Source: Nitrospiraceae bacterium | GTDB taxonomy: Bacteria; Nitrospirota; Nitrospiria; Nitrospirales; Nitrospiraceae | DNA: 64,000 bases | Reading direction: 5' to 3' | Assembly: GCA_919902505.1 (NCBI GenBank) | Contig: CAKKRE010000009.1 | Span: 1 to 64,000 of the forward strand | In this document: one piece after another, positions 1-13,647 of the stretch | Position numbering within the stretch: the first letter of the stretch is position 1 | Layout of the letters: each line of letters starts with the position of its first letter | Made by a program: the position numbers and the translations under genes | The notes under the pieces: generated by a model | Databases searched by the model: none | Told to the model about the DNA's origin: nothing | What the model saw: the letters and a program-made list of their open reading frames with translations, nothing else

Positions 1-37
1 GTGTGGAGCCTCGATGGCTTTTTCTCTTGCCCAAGTC

Positions 38-85
38 GTGAATTATTCAGGCTAGACCGGACCATGCATGAATAATCCGGGCTAG
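38..85. repeat. Two degenerate copies of a GGCTAG-ended repeat terminus
   Basis: Bases 38-55 and 67-85 are similar direct copies. The second, reading catgaataatccgggctag, matches the right arm of the inverted-repeat element at 21641-21659 at 17 of 19 positions by eye. This suggests that the end of a dispersed element of the 21480-21658 type lies at the left edge of the window. Confidence 0.5.
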
Positions 86-127
86 CGCCTCCTGCGCCTC
101 CAATCCTCTCGTTTCCTTCTTGCGCAT

Positions 128-162
128 TATCCATTTGGATACGCACTGTATCCACGTCGATA
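128..162. promoter_or_regulatory. Tandem 14-bp dyads, candidate operator pair
   Basis: TATCCA-TT-TGGATA (128-141) is a perfect dyad. TATCCA-CG-TCGATA (149-162) is a second copy with one mismatch between its arms. The copies start 21 bp apart, about two helical turns, which would place two dimeric regulators on the same DNA face. They lie about 150-180 bp upstream of the large membrane-protein gene at 311. The regulator is unknown and the function is inferred from symmetry and spacing only. Confidence 0.45.
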
Positions 163-310
163 CATTGTCCTACGTACTGTGCACAGCACTGTGTCAAAAG
201 CAGCCGATTTCGTTTGGGTCCAACCATCGGGTAAGTGGCACAGTACATGCTGAATTACCCTAGTGGTTAGGGGGTATGCCTAGGAACCTCACGTTTGGTG
301 GAGGTTGCGC

Positions 311-3300
311 ATGGCGTTCAAGGGTGACGATTCCACCTTTTCATTAGCCACCACAGTGACCCTGGCCCTGGCCGTGGCGGCCATGGTGTTTGTGAAGGAG
401 CCGCTCAAGAGTTCGCGACCAGTAGGGAATAGTGTCGGTCTGGGGGGAGCGGCCAGTGAATTGAAAGCCCGTGCGAGGCTATGGGAGGACCCATTTGCGG
501 CGGTTGAGAGGGATCGAGAGGTCAGAAAGAAGATTTCGGTCGCACAAACAGGCAAAGGCAAGGGGCCTCCGGGAGCGGTGACCGTATCCGTGCAGTCGGG
601 GGACGTCGATGGCGAAGGCCTGGACAGCTTGTGGAGAAAACTGAGGAACGCTGTTGAGCAAAAGGAGCAAGTCACGGCGCTCGTGGTAATGACCGGGAGC
701 GGATCGTCGGTCGAAGCCGGCGAAGCGCGCATCCGGGATCGGTACGCGGTGGGCGCGGCGCTGGAGGTCGGCTGTTTTACCCCGGACAAGGGAGAATCTA
801 TTTCCTACTTCACGTGGAGCTTCGCGACCGACTTGGGTGCTCACTCGCAATACACACCGTACGAATGGTACAGCCGCAGCAAGATTACCCCCTGTCGCAC
901 GTTCAATGTACAAGCTGGACAAGCACCAGTCCGTCAGGTGCTGGTGCTCTGGGTGAAGGCTGAAGAGTCCGAACAAATCATCCTCGCGCGCATCCATGCG
1001 CTGCTCGCAAAAGTTCGTCCATCTGACCTCGAACGCCGCATTCCAGCAAAACTAGTGGGGCCCCGCAGCTCCTCCGAGTTTCGAAGCATCCTCCAGGAAA
1101 TCCAGAGAGGGGGTAACGGCAACACCGGCGCGGGTCGACAAGATCCACAGAAATCGAAGCAATCCGGGCGAAAGACGAACGAGCCCATTGCCCTGTATTC
1201 CCCTTGGGCCACGGCCATGCCCGGCCTCCTCTCCTATGGAATGGCCAGCGGAAGCGGAAACAATGAGGGCGGGTGCCGATCCTATCTTGCGTGCAAGCAG
1301 GTGTTTGTTGAACTGCTGTCCGAGGCCGGTCTGATTCTTGAGCACGGTATCGACAGTGACGCGGTACTCTTCGAGTCCCTGTTTGATGAACTCAATCGCC
1401 GGCAAGTGACCGTGGGAGTGGACCCGATCGCCCTGATCGGAGAGTGGGATTCCTTCTATGCCCGCGCCCTCCCGCTCACGTTCAGCGCGGCAGCCTGTCG
1501 GTACATCACCGATGCGAACGCCAACAAGGACCATCCTCCCTCCAAGGCGCTCGTGGACCGATTACGTGGGAAATGTGACACCACGGAGGAAGGTATAGAT
1601 CCATTCAAGATAGGCGACCTTTCGCCACACACTCTTCACATCAGGAAGTACAGTTATCTGAGCGGGCTGGATGGGGAAACCTCAAACGATTCCTTGGGAA
1701 CATCCAAACTCAAAGACGCCGAGAAAGAAAAAGACAAGACTGACGGCGGACAGGCGAAGCTTCGCGATATTGCTTCGTATGAACGGCCTGAAGGGCCTTC
1801 GCAACTCGACTATGTTCGCCGATTGGTCGCTCGCATCGAGACTGAGGACCAGGATCAGGCCGCGAACCCCGAGGGCAGGAAGGTCAAGGCCATCGGTATT
1901 CTGGGGCGAGATGCTTACGATGCGCTCCTCATTCTTCAAGCGGTGCGGGAGCAGTTTCCGAACGCATTGTTCTTCGCCACGGATCTGGATGCACGGTACT
2001 TCCACGAAGATGAGCAGAAGTGGGCGCGCAACCTCATCGTGGTGTCCCATTTCGGCTTGCAACTGGAGTCGTCTTTGCAGGAAGCCATCCCACCTTTCCG
2101 CCACTCCCTCCAAACGTCCACGTTCTTTGCCGTCTTGCGGGCCATCGACCGGGTGGGCTATCAGCCGCCGGGGACCGGACAGAACCGCGATTCTTCCCGA
2201 TTCATCTTGCCAGGCTCTCACGGCATCGCGACGGAGTACAGCGTTTTGATTCGTCCGCGCCTCTTCGAAATTGGACGCCATGGCGCGGTCGATCTGAGTG
2301 TGGACAAGTCACGCAGTGGGGAGAAGAGCATCCATCCGGCGCGAACCGATGTCGATGGAGACACAGGAAGACTCAAACTGCCGCCGAGAATCGCCTCCCT
2401 CTGGATGGTCGGCCTACTTCTGGGTTTCCTGGCTTTGTGGGGGTATGGACGGCTCTGGAACTGGTTGACGGCTCGAGACGAACTGGATCCGACAGAACAA
2501 CGCCTCGCACGGATCCGTCGCTCAGCCTGGGTCTTCATTCCCGTCATCGGAGCGCTTTGGTTTTGGTGCCAGATCGTGCACTTCAACTATGCCGAAGATG
2601 AGCCTTTTTCCTGGTCCGACGGCATGAGCATTTGGCCCACGGAAGCCCTGCGGGTATTCGCCATCTCCCTGTGCCTGTTCTTCCAGATTAAGGCCAGCGC
2701 CGATTCCGCTAGCAATATCGACGATCTCACGAAGTCGTTTTTCCCCGATGTATCCTGTCAGTCTACCGCCGGCGGGTGGCGGAACGCCTTGAAAGGATTC
2801 TGGAGGGACTTGGACTGGATTTTCCATGGGTCCAAGCAGGACCATCCGGGCGAAGCGAGTGCGCTTTGGGGGCGCTACTGCCGAGCCCATAAATTTTCCC
2901 CGCGCATAGGGCGAGTCGCCTTGGGATTAGCTGGCTATTTCGGTTTGATCTTGCCCCTGTGCCTGTTTATGAACGATGGAGAGCTCCGTCTCTTCGTGCC
3001 CTGTCGCGGCACGTTCAGCTGCTCCGCCGACAGGGTGTTCATTATTTTGAGTGTCTTGTCTTTCCTCATTCTCAATCTAGCCGTGCTGGATGCGGTAGTC
3101 CTCTGCACAAAATGGGTTCAGGAGATGCCGGCCACCGCCGGGTTGAGTGAGATGACGCAGATCCGCCTCATCGTCGAGCGAACTAAAATCGTGAATCGAC
3201 GGATTCTGTATCCCTTCCTGGCGCTCTTCCTCTTGATCGCCGCCCGAAGCCATTACTTCGACAATTGGGATTTTCCGCCGGTCTTGATCCTAGCTCTCAC

Positions 3301-3595
3301 GGTCAACAGTCTGGTGGCTCTCGCCAGCGCCTGCATGTTATATCTGGCCGCAGTGGGAGCCAAGCGGAAGGTGCTTGCACCGCTTCAGCTGAAAGTCGAT
3401 CGTGCCCTGACTCAGCAGGAGTGTGCCGAACCAGGCGTGGATCCGGGACCGTCGAGTGATCACCTGCGGCAGATCATCAGTGAGATTGAGGCTGTGCAAC
3501 AGGGAGCCTTTGTTCCCTTCTACCAGCAGCCGGTCGTTCAAGCGACGTTGGTCGCCGCTCTGGCCTTCCTGCAATATTGGTATCTGGGTCAATAG
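311..3595 (+). CDS. Large polytopic membrane protein of unknown function with a binding-protein-like domain
   Basis: About 1094 residues. ATG 311 is preferred over TTG 305 because GGTGGAGG ends 6 nt before it. One hydrophobic segment lies at about residues 10-28, followed by a long, probably extracytoplasmic region of about 660 residues. About eight hydrophobic segments follow (roughly 693-715, 740-757, 780-796, 869-887, 909-932, 965-979, 991-1015, 1074-1094). A stretch around residues 527-600 (IGILGRDAYDALLIL, then FFATDLDAR) resembles the alternating beta/alpha pattern of type I periplasmic-binding folds. That assignment is an inference. No catalytic motif was recognised. The gene is alone in its direction, with tandem dyads upstream. 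The family was not identified; a sensor or transport role is possible but unproven. Confidence 0.85.
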   Translation: MAFKGDDSTFSLATTVTLALAVAAMVFVKEPLKSSRPVGNSVGLGGAASELKARARLWEDPFAAVERDREVRKKISVAQTGKGKGPPGAVTVSVQSGDVDGEGLDSLWRKLRNAVEQKEQVTALVVMTGSGSSVEAGEARIRDRYAVGAALEVGCFTPDKGESISYFTWSFATDLGAHSQYTPYEWYSRSKITPCRTFNVQAGQAPVRQVLVLWVKAEESEQIILARIHALLAKVRPSDLERRIPAKLVGPRSSSEFRSILQEIQRGGNGNTGAGRQDPQKSKQSGRKTNEPIALYSPWATAMPGLLSYGMASGSGNNEGGCRSYLACKQVFVELLSEAGLILEHGIDSDAVLFESLFDELNRRQVTVGVDPIALIGEWDSFYARALPLTFSAAACRYITDANANKDHPPSKALVDRLRGKCDTTEEGIDPFKIGDLSPHTLHIRKYSYLSGLDGETSNDSLGTSKLKDAEKEKDKTDGGQAKLRDIASYERPEGPSQLDYVRRLVARIETEDQDQAANPEGRKVKAIGILGRDAYDALLILQAVREQFPNALFFATDLDARYFHEDEQKWARNLIVVSHFGLQLESSLQEAIPPFRHSLQTSTFFAVLRAIDRVGYQPPGTGQNRDSSRFILPGSHGIATEYSVLIRPRLFEIGRHGAVDLSVDKSRSGEKSIHPARTDVDGDTGRLKLPPRIASLWMVGLLLGFLALWGYGRLWNWLTARDELDPTEQRLARIRRSAWVFIPVIGALWFWCQIVHFNYAEDEPFSWSDGMSIWPTEALRVFAISLCLFFQIKASADSASNIDDLTKSFFPDVSCQSTAGGWRNALKGFWRDLDWIFHGSKQDHPGEASALWGRYCRAHKFSPRIGRVALGLAGYFGLILPLCLFMNDGELRLFVPCRGTFSCSADRVFIILSVLSFLILNLAVLDAVVLCTKWVQEMPATAGLSEMTQIRLIVERTKIVNRRILYPFLALFLLIAARSHYFDNWDFPPVLILALTVNSLVALASACMLYLAAVGAKRKVLAPLQLKVDRALTQQECAEPGVDPGPSSDHLRQIISEIEAVQQGAFVPFYQQPVVQATLVAALAFLQYWYLGQ

Positions 3596-3663: not shown

Positions 3664-4377
3664 ATGCGTATCGATAAGCTCGGCGGCCTCACGGTCCGCC
3701 TGACGGGCGGCACTGACGATAAGGGTGGGGGCAACGGCCCGCTGGTGGTGCTGCTCCATGGTTTCGGTGCGCCGGGCGACGACCTCGTGCCACTCAGTGA
3801 GTATCTCGATGCGCCTACCGGCACGCGCTTTCTCTTTCCTGAAGCCCCGATTTCCATCCCGATGGGTTTCGGCGATTCGCGCGCATGGTGGATGATCGAC
3901 ATGGCCCGCATCCAGGCGGATCGGGCAGCGGGCAAAGTCCGCGACATGTCCGGCGAAATTCCGCGCGGGTTGCCTGAAGCGCGGGAGCGCATGACGGTGC
4001 TGCTGGATGAGATACACAAGAAACTCGGCGCCGATCCCAAGCGCACGGTGTTAGGCGGCTTTTCGCAAGGGGCGATGCTGTCTTGTGACGCATTGCTCCA
4101 CAGCAACCAGCCCTATGCCGGACTCATCCAGCTCTCCGGGACCCTGGTGGCAAAACAGGAGTGGGCGCCATTGCTGGCAAAGCGCAAAGGCCTGCCGCTG
4201 TTTCAGAGCCACGGCACGCAGGATCCGATCCTGCCCTACGCCATGGCCGAGCGATTGCGCGATGAATTTCTCCAGGCCGACGTGGCAGTCGATTGGCAGC
4301 CGTTTCGAGGCGGCCATGAAATTCCTGAACCGGTCTTGCGGAAGCTGGGCAGCTTTTTGTTGAAGACGGTGCGATAG
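3664..4377 (+). CDS. Phospholipase/carboxylesterase-type alpha/beta hydrolase
   Basis: This 237-residue cytoplasmic hydrolase resembles the YpfH/Est family (phospholipase/carboxylesterase, PF02230), which cleaves short-chain esters. LLHGFGAPGDD near residue 31 forms the oxyanion-side loop. The nucleophile Ser134 is in GGFSQGAM, Asp187 is in GTQDPIL and His218 is in GGHEIPE, which completes the triad. The length fits the family. There is no signal peptide. It ends 7 bp before the next hydrolase gene, so the two are probably co-transcribed. The natural substrate cannot be told from sequence. Confidence 0.9.
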   Translation: MRIDKLGGLTVRLTGGTDDKGGGNGPLVVLLHGFGAPGDDLVPLSEYLDAPTGTRFLFPEAPISIPMGFGDSRAWWMIDMARIQADRAAGKVRDMSGEIPRGLPEARERMTVLLDEIHKKLGADPKRTVLGGFSQGAMLSCDALLHSNQPYAGLIQLSGTLVAKQEWAPLLAKRKGLPLFQSHGTQDPILPYAMAERLRDEFLQADVAVDWQPFRGGHEIPEPVLRKLGSFLLKTVR

Positions 4378-4384
4378 GCTCACG

Positions 4385-5176
4385 ATGGATGCGTTCACAC
4401 TCACCGGTGCAGACGGCACCATGCTCCGTGGCGATCGCCTCGAAGGCAAGGATCGTCAGATTCTGTTCATCACCGGGTTTTTGTCCAAGCGGTGGGGCAA
4501 CAAGAGCAAGGCGCTGGCGCAATGGTGCCGGGAACGGGGCTGGGGCTTCTGCTGCTTCGACTTTCGCGGCTGGGGCGATTCGGGAGGAGCCTGGGGCGAG
4601 TATCGTCTGCTGCAATGGTTGGAAGACGCTGAAGCCGTCACGAAAATGCTGAACGATGGTCCAGATCTTACCCACCCTCCCCAGGCGCGCCGAGACACGC
4701 CTTCTCCCCGGGTGACGATTGTCGGCAATTCCCTCGGCGGATGGCTGGCCTGGCTGGTGGCACAGGAACAGCCGGCGGTGGAAGAATTGATCCTGATCGC
4801 CCCGGCGTTCAATATGATGGACCTGCGCGCGTCGCAGATTTCCGCCGAGCGGCGTGAGCGGTGGCAGGCGACCGGGTCCATGCCCTGGGACGACGAGCCC
4901 ATGCATCGGGATGCGCCGATTCCCTGGCATTGGGTCGAGGACAGCCAGGCGCTCTGGAGCCGTCGCTTCACCATGCCGCGTCGCGTCAAGGCGACCATTC
5001 TGCATGGGCTACAGGATGCGGTGATCAAACCAGACGGAAGCTGGGCCTTCGTGCAGCAGGTGCTGTCGCAGGATCCTGAATTTCCCATCGAAGTCCTATT
5101 CAAAACCGGTGATCACCGTCTGAGCAGTCCCGACCATTTGGAGACCGTGCGACGGCTTGTGCTGAGAGGTCGATAG
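4385..5176 (+). CDS. Alpha/beta hydrolase (serine aminopeptidase/lipase-like)
   Basis: A 263-residue alpha/beta hydrolase with nucleophile Ser116 in GNSLGGW, Asp211 in LQDAVI and His244 in GDHRL. The triad is complete and the protein is cytoplasmic. The region FITGFLSKRWGNKS near residue 30 and the DFRGWGDS loop fit the Hydrolase_4/BAAT-like group. The last 66 bp, which encode the catalytic His and the C-terminus, are duplicated imperfectly at 6042-6107 beyond the toxin-antitoxin genes. This indicates that DNA was inserted at the 3' end of this gene (see findings). The substrate is unknown. Confidence 0.88.
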   Translation: MDAFTLTGADGTMLRGDRLEGKDRQILFITGFLSKRWGNKSKALAQWCRERGWGFCCFDFRGWGDSGGAWGEYRLLQWLEDAEAVTKMLNDGPDLTHPPQARRDTPSPRVTIVGNSLGGWLAWLVAQEQPAVEELILIAPAFNMMDLRASQISAERRERWQATGSMPWDDEPMHRDAPIPWHWVEDSQALWSRRFTMPRRVKATILHGLQDAVIKPDGSWAFVQQVLSQDPEFPIEVLFKTGDHRLSSPDHLETVRRLVLRGR

Positions 5177-5300: not shown

Positions 5301-5564
5301 GTGCCAACCGTCAAAGTGTGGGGGAGGGGGCAGCTGACGATTCCGGCCTCCATTCGAAAAGAGCTCCGTCTGGAAGAAGACGTGTCCCTGACTGTCGTCA
5401 AGGTCGGAGAGGTGTTGCTCCTCACGCCGCGGCCGCTCATCGGAGATGCCGTCGCGAAAAAGGTCGCGCGGGCGATGAAGAAAACCGGACTGAAGCTGGA
5501 CGATCTCTTGGCGGACCTTAAAGAACAGCGGGAACGGTACAATCGGGAGCGAAATGGAGCGTAA
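5301..5564 (+). CDS. AbrB/MazE-fold antitoxin
   Basis: An 87-residue protein. The N-terminal swapped-hairpin AbrB domain (residues 1-50) begins PTVKVWGRGQLTIPASIRKEL, the typical VxxRGQxTIPxxIRxxL pattern. The C-terminal helical tail would bind the toxin. The start is GTG at 5301 with a strong AAGGAGG at 5290-5296. The toxin gene overlaps the 3' end by 11 bp. The product should neutralise the PIN ribonuclease and repress its own promoter, where a palindrome is present. The family and pairing are well established; the partner specificity is inferred. Confidence 0.88.
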   Translation: MPTVKVWGRGQLTIPASIRKELRLEEDVSLTVVKVGEVLLLTPRPLIGDAVAKKVARAMKKTGLKLDDLLADLKEQRERYNRERNGA

Positions 5565-6006
5565 ACGATGGCGTGTCTTTCTCGATACGAGCGCACTGAT
5601 TGCAGGGGTCGTGTCTCCGACGGGCGCAGCCAGGGAAGTGCTCCGACTGGCCGAAGCAAGAGTCATCGAGCTGGTTGTATCCAGACAGGTTCTGGTGGAA
5701 GCGGAGCGGAATCTCGCGTCAAAACTTCCGTTAGTGCTGGATGACTACCATCTGCTGCTCCGCCGTCTGGAGCCGGTGGTTGTCGAAGATCCTCCTCGTG
5801 CAGCCGCGCAAGAGGCCGCTCGCGTCATTCATCGGAACGATGCGCCGATTCTTGCGGCGGCGCGCATTGCGGCGGTAGATTATCTTGTCACGTGGAATAC
5901 GCGGGACTTCCTCACAGACCGCGCGCGGGATTGGGCCTCGTTTCCGGCACTGACACCCGGTGAATTCCTTCGAGCGTTTCGAGACGTGCTCGGCAAGGAA
6001 GGTTAA
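5554..6006 (+). CDS. PIN-domain toxin (COG1569-type ribonuclease)
   Basis: A 150-residue PIN-domain protein. Acidic residues that would coordinate Mg2+ are visible: Asp in FLDTSALIAG near residue 10, Glu near residue 49 (VLVEAERN), Asp in NDAPILAAA near residue 92, and Asp in TWNTRDF near residue 117. This matches the putative toxin PIN family that pairs with AbrB-fold antitoxins. It overlaps the antitoxin gene by 11 bp, which is typical translational coupling. Toxicity and RNA target are not shown by sequence. The pair lies between two copies of the neighbouring hydrolase 3' end. Confidence 0.88.
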   Translation: MERKRWRVFLDTSALIAGVVSPTGAAREVLRLAEARVIELVVSRQVLVEAERNLASKLPLVLDDYHLLLRRLEPVVVEDPPRAAAQEAARVIHRNDAPILAAARIAAVDYLVTWNTRDFLTDRARDWASFPALTPGEFLRAFRDVLGKEG

Positions 6007-7521: not shown

Positions 7522-9204
7522 ATGGCGACGAACGATAAGCAAGTAATTTTTTCACTGGTCGGTGTCGGCAAGGTCTATCCGCCGAAGAAGCAGGTCCTGC
7601 GCGATATCTATCTGGGCTTTTACTACGGCGCCAAGATCGGCGTGCTGGGCTTGAACGGATCCGGAAAAAGCTCATTACTCAAAATCATTGCCGGGACCGA
7701 TCCCAACTACGTCGGCGAGATCACTCGCTCGAAAGGCTACAGCGTCGGACTGCTCGAACAGGAGCCGCAGCTCGACTCCAACAAGACCGTCAAAGAAGTC
7801 GTCGAGGAGGGGAAGAAAGAGCTGGTGGCGCTGCTGCACGAGTATGAAGCGGTCAGCAACAGCATGGGCGAGGCTGGCCCCGATGAGATGGAAAAGCTTA
7901 TCGACAAGCAGGCGCAGCTGCAGGAAAAAATCGAAGCCGCCAACGGCTGGGAACTGGAGAGCGAACTCGAAATCGCCATGGATGCGCTGCGTTGCCCGCC
8001 TGCCGATCAGAAGATCAGCGTGCTCTCCGGCGGTGAGAAACGCCGCGTGGCCCTCTGCCGCCTCATGATCCAGGAGCCGGATATCCTGCTGCTCGACGAG
8101 CCGACCAATCACCTCGATGCGGAATCCGTGCAATGGCTGGAGCAGCACCTGCAACAGTACAAGGGCACGGTCATCGCGGTGACGCACGACCGGTACTTTC
8201 TGGACAACGTGGCGGGCTGGATTCTGGAACTCGACCGCGGCTCCGGCATTCCTTTCCAAGGCAACTACACGGCATGGCTCGAACAGAAACAGGACCGGTT
8301 GGAGAAAGAGGAGAAAGCCGAATCCAAGCGCAAGAAAACGCTCGAACATGAGTTGGAATGGATTCGCATGTCGCCGAAGGCCCGGCAGTCGAAGGGCAAG
8401 GCGCGTCTCAATCGGTATGAGGAATTGGTCAACCAAAAGCAGGACCAGCTGGCCGCCGATCTGGAAATCTATATTCCGCCGGGACCGCGGCTCGGGGATC
8501 TGGTGGTCGAGGCCAAGGGCATCAGCAAGGCCTTCGGCGACAACGTGCTGTATGAAAATGTCGAGTTCAGCCTGCCGAAGGGCGGCATTGTGGGCGTCGT
8601 CGGTCCCAACGGCGCGGGCAAGACCACCATGTTCCGCATGATCATCGGCAAGGAGAAACCGGATACCGGCACCATCCGCATCGGCGAAACGGTCAAGCTT
8701 GGCTATGTGGATCAGGATCGCTCGCTCGATCCCAATAAGACGGTGTACGAAATCATTTCCGAAGGACAAGACACGATCATGCTGGGCAAGGCCGAAGTGA
8801 ACGCCCGCGGTTACTGCGCCCGCTTCAATTTCGCCGGCACCGATCAGCAGAAGAAGGTGAAGGACCTCTCAGGCGGTGAGCGGAACCGGGTGCACCTGGC
8901 GCGCATGCTGAAAGAAGGCGCCAACCTCATCATCCTCGACGAACCGACCAACGACTTGGATGTGAACACGTTGCGCGCGTTGGAAGAGGGGTTGGAGGGA
9001 TTTGCCGGCTGCGCGGTCATCAGCAGTCACGACCGCTGGTTCTTAGACCGTGTCGCCACCCACATTATGGCGTTCGAAGGCGACAGCAAAGTGGTCTGGT
9101 ACGAAGGCAACTACAGCGAATACGAAGCCGATCGCAAGAAGCGGCTCGGCAAGGAAGCCGACCAGCCACATCGCATACGCTATCGCAAACTGACCAGGAA
9201 TTAG
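7522..9204 (+). CDS. ettA: Energy-dependent translational throttle protein EttA (ABC-F)
   Basis: A 560-residue twin-ATPase ABC-F protein with no membrane segments. It binds the ribosomal E site and gates entry into elongation according to ATP/ADP. ABC1 has Walker [10 protein letters not shown] near residue 45, signature LSGGEKRR near 167 and Walker [12 protein letters not shown] near 190. The charged linker (P-site tRNA interaction motif) lies at about residues 245-310. ABC2 has GPNGAGKTT near 365, LSGGERNR near 449 and [10 protein letters not shown] near 473. The length matches E. coli EttA. A good AGGGGAGCGC precedes the ATG. The TAG stop is directly abutted by repeat R2. Confidence 0.95.
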
Positions 9205-9479: not shown

Positions 9480-10736
9480 ATGAGCATGTTACGGGGACGT
9501 ACTCTAAGCCGCTGGTTGGCGGTGCTTGCCCTGGCCTCCGCCTCCTGCACGGCCATTGATCCTCCCCCGGCATCGCCTCCCGAATTTCGCCCCCTTCACA
9601 CGAGAGCCACGCTGCACTTGGGAGAGAAGGAACTGGCGGATGGCCGGTTCGTCGGGCTGGCCTTCTCCGGGGGAGGGAGCCGTGCAGCCGTGTTCGGCGC
9701 GGCGGTGATGAAGGAATTGGACCGCCTGGGCTTGCTGCAGCAGGTCGATGTGTTGTCCGCGGTGTCGGGAGGTGGGTTGCCCGCGGCGTCCTATGCGCTG
9801 GAGGGCTACCGCGACTTCAGTTTTCAAAACGGTTTCGTGGAGCAGATCGGGCGTGATTTTCAGGGGGCCATCCTGGGCCCCTGGTATGCCATGCCTCAGA
9901 ACGCAATCCGGTATGCGTTGACCGACCGGATTCCAGCCGAACAGATCATTCAGGTGTTGGACGACCGCCTCTTTCGCGGCGCAACCTTTGGGGATCTCAA
10001 TCCGTCACGACCGATTCTCCTCTTGAACGCCACCGATGCCCTCACCGGGGATCCGCTGATTATTTCCAGTGAACGGTTTGCTGCGCTGGGCCAGCCCCTC
10101 GCTCCCTTCAGCATCGCGCGCGCGGTGTATATGTCCGCGGCTTATCCCGGCGTGCTGGAGCCGCTGGCGATTCCTTATGGCATGGCAAACGGCACGCCAT
10201 CCGGACAGCCCCCGCTGCTGGCCTACGACGGCGGGGCGGCGGACAATCTCGGTATCCGGACGCTGATGCAGGTGGTGAACGACGCGCTGTCTGAGCAATC
10301 GATGGCCGATCGGTTTCCCCGCGGGTGTCTGGTCGTGTCGATCGATGCGACAGGCCGTCAGCTCAATGAGCAGCGTAAACCGCTCTCCGCAGCGGCGGCG
10401 CTGCTCAGAGGCCATCGGCGCAATGTGTTGGAGCTGGCCGGAATTCCTGTGTCACAACAGGATGCGTCCATGTTCGGCACCTTTCGGGTAGGGCTGAACG
10501 GAAACGGAGGAACCTGCCTGTTCTGGCACATTGCACTACGCCAGTTGCCGGCCAGCGATCCGTTAGGAGATCGCGCGACCTACATTAAGACCAATCTCGG
10601 GTTGTCGGCGGAAGACCAGTCGGCCCTTGTGACGGCAGCGGCCCGGCTTGTGGCGAAGGGCCGCGAAGAGATGCCTCAAGCGGACGGCTGGGCCGACTTC
10701 ACGAGCGCCCGGCCCGCCCTTCTCACGCAGCCATGA
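9480..10736 (+). CDS. Patatin-like phospholipase, lipoprotein
   Basis: 418 residues. The signal peptide ends in a lipobox-like LASASC, so Cys about 23 would be lipidated. The patatin core has the oxyanion loop SGGGSRAA near residue 66, nucleophile Ser in SAVSGGGLP near residue 96 (GxSGG variant) and Asp in AYDGGAADN near residue 250 (DGG motif). This Ser-Asp dyad defines patatin-family acyl hydrolases. It heads a three-gene operon whose junctions are both ATGA overlaps (10733, 11404). A role in envelope lipid turnover is inferred. Confidence 0.87.
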   Translation: MSMLRGRTLSRWLAVLALASASCTAIDPPPASPPEFRPLHTRATLHLGEKELADGRFVGLAFSGGGSRAAVFGAAVMKELDRLGLLQQVDVLSAVSGGGLPAASYALEGYRDFSFQNGFVEQIGRDFQGAILGPWYAMPQNAIRYALTDRIPAEQIIQVLDDRLFRGATFGDLNPSRPILLLNATDALTGDPLIISSERFAALGQPLAPFSIARAVYMSAAYPGVLEPLAIPYGMANGTPSGQPPLLAYDGGAADNLGIRTLMQVVNDALSEQSMADRFPRGCLVVSIDATGRQLNEQRKPLSAAAALLRGHRRNVLELAGIPVSQQDASMFGTFRVGLNGNGGTCLFWHIALRQLPASDPLGDRATYIKTNLGLSAEDQSALVTAAARLVAKGREEMPQADGWADFTSARPALLTQP

Positions 10737-11407: not shown

Positions 11408-12279
11408 AACCGACCGTCTTGATTACGGGTGCCGGCGGGCTGATCGGCGGGTACCTCGTCAGCACTGCTGCTCGGTGGGCCCCGCAGTGGAATGTGCGCG
11501 GAGTCACCAGGGCCGAGGCAGATTTGACCGACCTAATGCAGGTGCAGGAACTCTGGGACCGATCGAGACCGGCTCTGGTGATCCACTGTGCGGCCCTGAG
11601 CCGAACCGGCGCCTGCGAGCAGGACCCGGCGCGGGCCAGGCGAATCAATGTCGATGCGACTCGCGCTCTGGCTGCCGCCGCCCGGGACATCCCCTTTATC
11701 TTTCTGTCTACCGATCAGGTGTTTGACGGCGCGAAGGGACAGTATGTCGAAACGGATGCCGTGCATCCCCTGAATGTGTATGGACAGACGAAGGCAGAAG
11801 CGGAGCAGGTGGTGCTCGAGAATCCGGCCCATTCGATCGTTCGTATCGCCCTCACGGCCGGTACGTCGTCGACCCGTGATCGGAGTTTCGTTGAAGACAT
11901 GTTACGGACTGCGGCCAAGGGGACGAAGTTGACGCTCTTCACGGACGAGTTCCGCTGCCCCATTCCAGCCGGACCATTGGTACGCGCCCTGTGGGAGTTC
12001 GCCGCGCAGCCGCGGGCGGGCCTTTATCACCTGGGTGGGAGCGAGCGCTTGTCTCGATGGGAAATCGGCGAGTTGCTGGCGAAGCGTTATCCGGAGCTCC
12101 GGCTCTGGATTCAGCCCGGGTCAGTCGCCGACTATCACGGCCCGCCTCGTCCTCCGGATCTCTCGATGCGAAGCGACAAGCTGCAGGCGCTGCTGTCCTT
12201 CCGCCTGCCAGGTTTTCGTCAATGGCTCACCAATGGTTCGTCGGAGGGCGACGATCCTTGGAACCACAGCTCCCGGTGA
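11404..12279 (+). CDS. RmlD-like SDR (sugar nucleotide-binding protein)
   Basis: 291 residues. GAGGLIGGYL near residue 9 binds NAD(P). STDQVFDGAKG near residue 101 and the YGQTKAEAE segment (active Tyr/Lys, near residue 127) match the dTDP-4-dehydrorhamnose reductase superfamily. No other rhamnose genes are nearby, so a true RmlD role is doubtful; MAT2B-like or other reductases share these motifs. It is the last gene of the patatin/SDR operon. A cytochrome c gene converges from the right, 9 bp away. Confidence 0.84.
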   Translation: MKPTVLITGAGGLIGGYLVSTAARWAPQWNVRGVTRAEADLTDLMQVQELWDRSRPALVIHCAALSRTGACEQDPARARRINVDATRALAAAARDIPFIFLSTDQVFDGAKGQYVETDAVHPLNVYGQTKAEAEQVVLENPAHSIVRIALTAGTSSTRDRSFVEDMLRTAAKGTKLTLFTDEFRCPIPAGPLVRALWEFAAQPRAGLYHLGGSERLSRWEIGELLAKRYPELRLWIQPGSVADYHGPPRPPDLSMRSDKLQALLSFRLPGFRQWLTNGSSEGDDPWNHSSR

Positions 12280-12287
12280 CCGGTAGG

Positions 12288-12644
12288 TTAGTGAGGCAAG
12301 GTGCGGATGTAGGCCAGCACATTCCGAATGTCGCGTTCGGAGAGCAGGCCTTTCCAGGACGGCATGTTCGGTTTGCCTTCGTGGATGGTTGCCAGCAGGG
12401 CACTGTCGGATTTTTTTCTGGTCGCCGGTGCCGTGAGATTCGCTGGATCGGGCCCAAGTAGTTTGTATCCATCTCCTTTGCCTTGGACTCCGTGACATCC
12501 GGCGCAGTGTTTGATGAAGAGTGTCTTGCCCTTTGCAGGGTGAGCAGCTTTCGGCGAAGCATTGTCACCGGCCTCAGATGGGGCCGGTACCGCAACTGCA
12601 ATGGCCATCGCGACGATCAGCGCTTTGACGAAACACACGTTCAT
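12288..12644 (-). CDS. Periplasmic c-type cytochrome (class I, monoheme)
   Basis: 118 residues. The signal peptide ends around residue 25 (PAPSEA). Heme attachment is CAGCH (Cys47, Cys50, His51). A distal Met is likely in KPNMPSW near residue 95. The ending LLSERDIRNVLAYIRTL is the typical C-terminal helix of small cytochromes c that carry electrons in the periplasm. It is transcribed alone, divergent from the DUF1295 gene. The partner is unknown; such proteins are common in nitrite oxidisers. Confidence 0.9.
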   Translation of the reverse strand: MNVCFVKALIVAMAIAVAVPAPSEAGDNASPKAAHPAKGKTLFIKHCAGCHGVQGKGDGYKLLGPDPANLTAPATRKKSDSALLATIHEGKPNMPSWKGLLSERDIRNVLAYIRTLPH

Positions 12645-12828
12645 GACGGTCCCTCCGGTGTGATGTGACGGCGCTCGCCCAGTGCTGATGGTGAATCATA
12701 CCTGCCTCTGAATCCGAATGCCATGCTACCCCGGCGGCCCTGTCTTGATGGAAGCCGTCATAGTACAATTGCTTGATTCTGTGCGGTGAATCCGGTTCGT
12801 GTGCAGTTCATGTCCGGTAGCTGATCGC

Positions 12829-13647
12829 ATGACGGCGAGAGATCCCCTGTCCCTCCTCATCACCGCCTGGGCTGCTTCCGCAGCCTTGATGGTCCTGCTG
12901 TGGTTGGTCGAACGTCGCATGCGTAACCTTTCCATCGCCGATGTGGGCTGGTGTTACGGGCTGGCGTTGGTGGTGTGGTGGTACGCCGGCTCCGGTGCGG
13001 GAGAACCGGTCAGGCGATTGCTGGTGGCTTCGATGATCTTCCTCTATGCTGTCCGTCTCGGCACACATGTCCTCATCGACCGGGTGTGGCACAAGCAGGA
13101 GGATGGGCGATACCGCGCGCTACGCCGCCGATGGGGCGCACACGAGTCCTCGCGCATGTTCTGGTATTTCCAGCTCCAGGCCGCCGCCATTGCGTTTTTT
13201 TCTCTCCCGCCGCTCGTGGTCATGCAGAACCCCCATCCGCCGTTTCACTTTTGGGACCTGATTGGATTTCTCTGGTGGGCTGTAGCAGTCACGGGTGAGG
13301 CCGTGGCCGATTGGCAGTTGGCTGCGTTTCGCCGCAAGCCGTGGAATACAGATCGTGTGTGCCGGTTCGGTCTGTGGCGCTATTCACGCCATCCCAACTA
13401 CTTTTTTGAATGGTTGCACTGGTGGAGTTATGTGTGGATGGCGCTGGCGATTCCTACGGGAGGGTGGGGCCTGACGCTGATCGGCCCGATGGCCATGGGT
13501 GTAGCGCTGCTGAAGGTCACCGGCATTCCCTGGACGGAAGCGCAGACCATGACGAGCCGTGGGGAGGAATATGCGGAGTATCGGCGAACCACGAACGCCT
13601 TCTTTCCCTGGTTTCCGCGCCGGGGAAGCGTAAAACGTGAAACGTGA
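12829..13647 (+). CDS. DUF1295 membrane protein (steroid 5-alpha-reductase-like)
   Basis: About 272 residues from ATG 12829; GTG 12799 is an alternative. Five or six membrane segments are visible. The C-terminal part has GLWRYSRHPNYFFEWLHW, the signature of the DUF1295/ICMT-like reductase and methyltransferase fold, and then GEEYAEYRRTTNAFFPWFP. The last residues (SVKRET) and the TGA stop are encoded by repeat R3, so the native C-terminus seems to have been replaced. The reaction is unknown. Confidence 0.85.
   Translation: MTARDPLSLLITAWAASAALMVLLWLVERRMRNLSIADVGWCYGLALVVWWYAGSGAGEPVRRLLVASMIFLYAVRLGTHVLIDRVWHKQEDGRYRALRRRWGAHESSRMFWYFQLQAAAIAFFSLPPLVVMQNPHPPFHFWDLIGFLWWAVAVTGEAVADWQLAAFRRKPWNTDRVCRFGLWRYSRHPNYFFEWLHWWSYVWMALAIPTGGWGLTLIGPMAMGVALLKVTGIPWTEAQTMTSRGEEYAEYRRTTNAFFPWFPRRGSVKRET

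Follow-up and report, generated by a model that had tools for sequence, protein, structure and literature searches.

A one-chain candidate receptor of the Nitrospiraceae with a predicted flytrap domain and an eight-helix membrane bundle

Introduction

What could be the role of a bacterial protein that holds most of its length outside the membrane, ends in a bundle of membrane helices and belongs to no named family? The question is raised by a gene that starts 310 bases into contig 9 (CAKKRE010000009.1) of a Nitrospiraceae bacterium (assembly GCA_919902505.1; 4.24 Mb in 84 contigs). The window analysed here is the first 64 kb (64,000 nucleotides) of that contig. The encoded protein is likely a flytrap receptor, and its best-defined forms would be a channel-type and a non-channel receptor. 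The gene, its topology, the flytrap fold and the gene order are supported by computation.

A conserved gene and its topology

The frame is a real gene and no chance open reading frame, because it is kept across genomes and because its ratio of nonsynonymous to synonymous substitution rates (dN/dS) is 0.25 against the orthologue of N. defluvii. Matches were found in 34 of 61 genomes (its own and 60 relatives) and in 86 of 395 genomes drawn from the phylum (its own included), where they are spread over 12 of 169 genera; one of them (genome G196) is related at phylum level only. A pattern-based scan of a collection with one genome per species (84,980 species), which detects close relatives only, returned 13 distinct loci, all titled Nitrospira. 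The genome also carries a second copy on contig 12, with 34% identity. The large membrane protein of 1,094 residues that the initial annotation had placed at 311-3595 is therefore well supported by computation as the product of a genuine conserved gene of the Nitrospiraceae.

Plasmids searched with the window protein gave no match. With a paralogue (L068) as query, a truncated fragment of the N-terminal part was found on the Methylosinus plasmid pMSC49b (L078, 7902-8360), and the family therefore extends to Alphaproteobacteria. A search of viral contigs with the family alignment yielded no confirmed relative, and phages, searched with the paralogue only, gave no match.

The topology was read from hydropathy and charge averaged over 50 homologues, together with two predicted models. 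Averaged hydropathy gives an anchor (residues 9-29) and then eight membrane helices from residue 692 onward, where segment 773-801, which emerged as two overlapping peaks, is counted as one helix. Loops 713-737, 802-867, 928-958 and 1012-1073 are net positive, as on the cytosol side, loops 759-772 and 980-990 are net negative, as on the outside, and loop 889-906 is slightly positive. Since the loop charges alternate, the long soluble part and the C-terminus are placed outside. One anchor, about 660 extracytoplasmic residues and eight membrane helices, much as first annotated, are thus well supported by computation, from averaged hydropathy, loop charges and both models. Two pairs of cysteines occur together or not at all (Table 1). 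These patterns support disulfides at both places but fall short of proof, because they partly track the two main clades.

The extracytoplasmic part

The whole-chain AlphaFold2 model was built from 12 sequences. Its first flytrap half is the better defined: 27 of the 34 ten-residue blocks in 111-450 average at least 70 on the predicted local distance difference test (pLDDT), and the weaker blocks of the second half (501-670) range from 41 to 79. On this model two alpha/beta lobes with the type I strand order make up the whole domain. In the VIA structure comparison, 746 of 1,000 chains scored Z of at least 8. The best match was 4m88, an extracellular ligand-binding receptor (Z 15.9, 314 aligned, root-mean-square deviation (rmsd) 3.9), and LivK, LivJ, AmiC and glutamate-receptor chains followed lower down over residues of about 118-667. 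Judged by their titles, the 50 listed entries comprise solute- or ligand-binding proteins, AmiC and glutamate-receptor chains, together with two isoleucine indicators and a single 'bacteria protein'. Foldseek with the whole model likewise returned the ANP receptor (E 1.1e-3). The predicted structure thus provides good computational support for residues 118-667 as one complete type I periplasmic-binding domain. The initial annotation had seen a type I binding-like segment and had proposed structure prediction of residues 500-690. The fold is indeed predicted there, but that segment is only one piece of the domain. A viral structure library held no match at E 0.001 or better.

Does the domain bind anything? 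Residues S254, S297, D380, Y383, R385, Y449, D454, D534, Y536 and D537 are among those invariant over the 50 sequences. Several of the invariant residues sit in loops that we take to be ligand-contact places of the type I fold, and the GP.SS and SPWAT loops presumably occupy such positions as well. The placement of the invariant residues suggests a real, if putative, ligand.

At the level of sequence the fold leaves little trace. Pfam, NCBIfam and PADLOC gave nothing near the cut-off for the window protein, and no transporter, kinase or cyclase domain rose above its family cut-off; as far as Pfam, NCBIfam, PADLOC and PDB sequence profiles reach, the earlier description of a protein of no known family, with no recognisable domain of these three kinds, holds. 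For 30 members, the flytrap part and the membrane part were then scanned at permissive thresholds (Pfam E up to 10; PADLOC E up to 1, flytrap part only), with filters that drop most matches above E 0.1. Only scattered names came up: the commonest family occurred in 3 of the 30 members (25 of 42 families being listed for one Pfam scan), and the strongest match, Sdh_cyt, reached E 5.9e-5 in a single member. No Pfam family of Peripla_BP_6 and its relatives was found for the window protein or for any of the 30. A role in anti-phage defence was considered and dropped, as PADLOC gave nothing for the window protein and a weak Csx19 match (E 0.046) in one of the 30 members.

Profile comparison by hhalign was made with Peripla_BP_6 proteins from the relatives' genomes. 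The first set was of 29 automatically chosen frames, from which four wrong-looking or over-long ones (L093, L095, L098, L101) were dropped for a second run. A single local match, itself not significant, aligned DSFYARALP with the D-aromatic-R stretch of binding proteins. The genome of the window has a 742-codon frame of its own with a Peripla_BP_6 domain (G000:C16:384806-385912, model positions 2-342) and much extra sequence.

The membrane bundle

The membrane part was folded alone from 13 sequences (mean pLDDT 69.7; predicted template modelling score 0.69). The structure check proposed for this part returned the eight helices already described, with further short helices at 713-732 and within loop 823-860, and added a resemblance, at moderate scores, that the initial annotation lacked. 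In the VIA comparison, insect gustatory or odorant receptors take up all of the top 13 rows and 15 of the best 18 (Z 7.8-9.9, 233-269 aligned), among them Gr43a (Z 9.9), BmGr9 (9.7), AgamOR28 (9.4) and Orco (6c70; Z 8.9, 249 aligned, rmsd 5.6). All of these alignments reach the last residue of the bundle model. The row for 8x84 pairs model residues 56-411 with chain residues 37-416 and so covers the seven core helices but leaves out the extra helix; the other insect-receptor rows begin at model residues 10-19, within the extra helix. Foldseek ranks the bundle closest to Gr43a, OR5 (two entries) and OR5-Orco (ranks 1-4; E 0.07-0.13, probability 0.95-0.44), and places OR5-Orco at rank 16 for the whole chain.

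How far does the anatomy agree? For the seven-transmembrane ion channels (7TMICs) to which these receptors belong, PMC9998090 lists seven helices, the N-terminus being intracellular, together with long TM4-6, a TM7 split into 7a and 7b, and a packing judged in its screen by Dali Z >10 to Orco. By hydropathy and model, the window protein has a seven-helix core with an intracellular N-terminus, plus one linking helix in front. On the bundle model TM4-6 are long (41, 34 and 49 residues) and TM7 is split (1047-1066, then 1074-1093). The TM7 motif TYhhhhhQF is absent: the C-terminus reads ATLVAALAFLQY, in which nothing of the motif recurs but Q and an aromatic, and these out of register. As described in the same source, that motif belongs to insect gustatory receptors (Grs) and is partly or not conserved outside insects (PMC9998090). 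The likeness of the predicted bundle to the insect-receptor channel fold is thus suggestive, not proven, and we treat it as a weakly supported lead with consistent anatomy and moderate scores.

The pattern of change along the gene is that of a receptor. The gene evolves faster than its neighbour SelO, as its dN against N. defluvii is 0.24 (dS 0.97) and that of SelO 0.04 (dS 0.63). Within the genus, identity (medians of 15) is 97% in residues 1064-1094 and 87% in 959-1011, against 50% in flytrap residues 118-450. The outer loops EPFSW.DG.SIWPTE, PCRG and YFDNWDFP are very conserved. In G003, G018 and G020, three genomes of this genus (loci L171, L076 and L170), the neighbouring genes found are 83-99% identical to those of the window, against 33% for the gene (best tblastn segments), and a divergent version of it apparently occupies the same slot by in-place replacement. 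A constant transducing core beneath a changing sensor is a receptor-like pattern, compatible with channel and non-channel alike.

Gene neighbourhood

What company does the gene keep? In its own genome the locus is split. Contig 27 has SelO at its end (52-1527, minus strand), followed by MpsC and then, divergently, DabB, a 435-residue protein and DabA, the last identified by Pfam (E 3.4e-265). The assembly is interrupted between SelO, on contig 27, and the window gene, on contig 9. By eye, ATTATTCA-like words stand on both sides of this break (window 1-100) and may be a short repeat element. Elsewhere the order MpsC-SelO-[gene]-esterase-hydrolase lies within one contig, for instance in L111. 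The 435-residue protein (L110, 4961-6268) recurs between DabB and DabA in relatives and has no Pfam match at E 0.001.

Gene order was tallied over 69 loci of orthologues and 15 of paralogues or distant relatives, a hand-picked subset of the genome matches in which many loci come from close relatives and are non-independent. A neighbour was counted if tblastn found it at >=35% identity within 14 kb upstream and in the expected orientation, and a locus was scorable if enough upstream DNA was present or the neighbour was found. The own genome stands outside the tally owing to the contig break. L115, which ends just before the gene, was left out when gene rows were read in individual loci. Among the orthologous loci, 66 of 68 scorable ones have SelO upstream in the same orientation as the gene, and 44 of 67 have MpsC so placed; DabB is divergent in 43 of 65 and DabA in 40 of 60. 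In the paralogous or distant loci the counts are 1 of 15 for SelO, none of 15 for MpsC and DabB, and none of 14 for DabA. A tree of 50 sequences separates the two groups by one branch (support 98 in the Shimodaira-Hasegawa-like approximate likelihood ratio test, SH-aLRT), with groups labelled by the author: 34 rows bear the label 'DABlocus', two of them (L032, L053) assigned without inspection of context. The survey of homologous loci, proposed with the first annotation, thus uncovered a conserved row MpsC-SelO-[gene], divergent from DabB-DabA.

DabA/DabB (MpsAB) transport inorganic carbon, and genes of this kind or carbonic anhydrases are typical of autotrophs in the phylum (PMC10880623). We infer a functional link of the window gene to inorganic-carbon uptake.

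Beyond the orthologues, the most distant relative (in G196; L061) has directly behind it, in the same orientation, a gene for a class III nucleotide cyclase with TPR-S (11474-12901). Another distant relative (L070, 3481-14126) stands alongside two patatin-like phospholipases, an unknown 653-residue protein, an S1/P1 nuclease and a weak metallo-beta-lactamase match under the cut-off, a row that might be a conflict-type cluster.

Proposed mechanism and alternatives

How would such a protein work? The flytrap domain would face the periplasm, held by the N-terminal anchor on one side and the eight-helix bundle on the other, and would close around a small ligand. Closure may be relayed to the bundle through the conserved outer loops. 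The seven-helix core, N-in/C-out and built like an insect gustatory or odorant receptor subunit, would most likely assemble so that the last helix lines a pore, and ligand binding would gate the ion pathway. In the Nitrospiraceae orthologues the signal would probably serve carbon supply or membrane energetics, since the gene belongs to the SelO/inorganic-carbon-uptake locus. We hold this full channel-type mechanism to be tentative, somewhat short of probable; ligand, oligomer, pore, gating and the carbon-uptake link are parts of it that we infer.

Several results weigh against this reading. The flanking charges of the anchor are ambiguous and leave its direction undecided. The models are of moderate quality: the whole chain averages a pLDDT of 62, with much of 496-667 under 70; the bundle model is moderate only, from few sequences, and its first 100 residues, which hold the linking helix and core helix 1, stay under 70, every ten-residue block of the first 90 averaging <60. 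The best Foldseek E value of the bundle (0.07, TM-score 0.31) is not significant, and ranks 1-4 have TM-scores of only 0.21-0.33. According to the VIA guidance, helical bundles with Z under about 13 may share merely a common arrangement, and the same list holds a designed nanopore (8.5), 9mg8 (8.4) and a designed crown protein (8.0). The Orco score also lies below the Dali threshold given by PMC9998090 in its screen. At the sequence level, family profiles met no PDB sequence better than E 1, hhalign gave the binding proteins a probability of <1%, not significant, the 7 Pfam families matched in the rescan include no binding-protein model, and no insect-receptor model is among the 25 listed of 42. 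Finally, DabB and DabA were not found in about one third of the scorable orthologous loci. The name of 9mg8, 'b-iTHR-110', was also considered as that of a receptor and rejected, as a literature search showed no such usage. We take the entry to be a designed repeat protein.

A receptor that is not a channel is a rather doubtful but well-defined alternative. Closure of the flytrap would move the bundle, and the cytosolic loops 802-867 and 1012-1063 would signal to a partner, perhaps SelO or the DabAB/MpsC machinery. The flytrap fold, the stable SelO neighbourhood and the guanylate-cyclase-type protein downstream of the distant relative in L061 all speak for it. However, the two loops are poorly conserved (family means 0.36 and 0.45; genus identity 55% and 48%), unlike an expected output surface, and Pfam, NCBIfam and PADLOC found no output domain.

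Less likely is a permease with a fused solute-binding domain, in which the flytrap would pass its solute to the bundle for transport. Type I binding proteins mostly serve transporters, and the fold matches solute-binding proteins best. Nevertheless, no transporter family of the three collections fits the protein, no transporter is found in the first 18 VIA rows of the bundle (MdtF is 46th and CorA 48th), and the Pfam-scanned neighbours include no partner of the ABC or TRAP transport type. Of the first annotation's idea of a novel one-chain sensor or uptake protein, a one-chain candidate of no named family survives, and 'uptake' is unsupported, with no transporter domain found. Very unlikely is a structural or assembly role in the inorganic-carbon (DAB) system, with a flytrap fold that has lost ligand binding. 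In its favour, the locus is conserved, and some flytrap-fold domains, such as glutamate-receptor N-terminal domains, bind no small ligand. Against it, paralogous and distant copies outside the DAB locus (DabB 0/15) share the invariant residues, and in 20 of 60 scorable orthologous loci no DabA was found.

The channel-type receptor is thus the reading that we prefer. Its boldest version, a bacterial ligand-gated channel of new architecture (type I sensor, extra helix and insect-receptor-fold pore) from an old bacterial 7TMIC branch, standing in Nitrospiraceae beside an inorganic-carbon pump and possibly sensing dissolved carbon or an amino-acid-like ligand, is unlikely on present evidence. A tie to the sensing of carbon dioxide by insect Grs was considered and is taken as coincidence until the ligand is known. 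If true, the channel-type reading would provide a natural one-chain flytrap-gated channel and, for nitrite oxidisers, identify a sensor at the locus for inorganic-carbon uptake.

Features of the locus

Downstream of the two hydrolase genes (Table 1), the window encodes a PIN-domain protein (PIN_3; 5554-6006), toxin-like, and at 7522-9204 an ABC protein that looks, from its sequence, like a soluble ABC-F. A patatin-like phospholipase is encoded at 9480-10736, and one also lies close to the gene in several related loci.

Table 1. Features of the gene, its product and the adjacent genes, in window coordinates
Feature	Residues	Coordinates	Strand	Basis or remark
Ribosome-binding site GGAGG, 6 bases 5' of ATG		300-304	+	Read by eye
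Whole gene, 1,094 amino acids		311-3595	+	ATG at 311, stop ends at 3595
N-terminal membrane anchor	9-29	335-397	+	Averaged hydropathy; helix 9-26 in model, low pLDDT
Predicted type I periplasmic-binding (Venus flytrap) domain	118-667	662-2311	+	Predicted structure, VIA and Foldseek
Cys155-Cys195, presumed disulfide	155-195	773-895	+	Within 4 columns: both 35, neither 15, one alone 0 (n=50 sequences)
Charged insert within flytrap domain, probably disordered	451-495	1661-1795	+	Low confidence, pLDDT <50
Segment of the initial annotation, IGILGRDAYDALLIL, strand-helix unit of flytrap domain	528-542	1892-1936	+	Translation and model
Linking helix, out to in	692-712	2384-2446	+	Hydropathy and bundle model (helix 692-710), low pLDDT
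Core helix 1	738-758	2522-2584	+	Hydropathy and bundle model (helix 737-757), low pLDDT
Core helix 2, overlaps end of conserved outer motif EPFSW.DG.SIWPTE	775-810	2633-2740	+	Hydropathy, model, alignment
Core helix 3	862-887	2894-2971	+	Bundle model
Outer loop PCRGTFSC, Cys898-Cys904, presumed disulfide	898-904	3002-3022	+	Both 46, neither 4, one alone 0 (n=50)
Core helix 4, long	901-941	3011-3133	+	Bundle model
Core helix 5, long	947-980	3149-3250	+	Bundle model
Core helix 6, 49 residues, extends into cytosol	990-1038	3278-3424	+	Bundle model
Cytosolic helix in 7TMIC TM7a position	1047-1066	3449-3508	+	Bundle model
Last membrane helix in 7TMIC TM7b position	1074-1093	3530-3589	+	Bundle model
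Next gene downstream, phospholipase/carboxylesterase (Abhydrolase_2)		3664-4377	+	Pfam; neighbour in related loci too
Second gene downstream, alpha/beta hydrolase (Hydrolase_4)		4385-5176	+	Pfam; neighbour in related loci too

Comparison with known systems

With type I periplasmic binding proteins (LivJ/LivK, AmiC; Peripla_BP_6) the window protein shares the predicted fold over residues 118-667, at Z up to 15.9. It differs from them in being fused to the membrane, in a 45-residue insert of low confidence and in having no significant sequence similarity.

Class C G-protein-coupled receptors (mGlu5, GABA-B, CaSR) likewise join a Venus flytrap and a helical bundle in one chain, and mGlu5 heads the Foldseek list for the whole model (E 4.7e-5). 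Homology to this class was rejected as the main reading, because that match is not one rigid superposition (rmsd 38.5 over 1,085 columns) and the 50 VIA rows listed for the bundle alone contain no class C receptor. The window protein further differs in its eight helices, its C-terminus predicted outside and a linker (668-691) with no cysteine.

The insect gustatory and odorant receptors (7TMICs) share with the bundle the N-in/C-out seven-helix core, the long helices 4-6 and the split helix 7. The window protein is bacterial, has an extra helix and a flytrap in front, shows no detected sequence similarity to them and scores under the published threshold. According to PMC9998090, no such protein was found in the prokaryotes that it screened. 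By contrast, Himmel et al. (2023) are said in a review (PMC11526382) to support eukaryote-to-prokaryote transfer of 7TMICs. The deep origin of the insect smell and taste receptor superfamily is unsettled, and a conserved bacterial family with an insect-receptor core and a binding domain of its own would, if the resemblance is real, offer a tractable relative.

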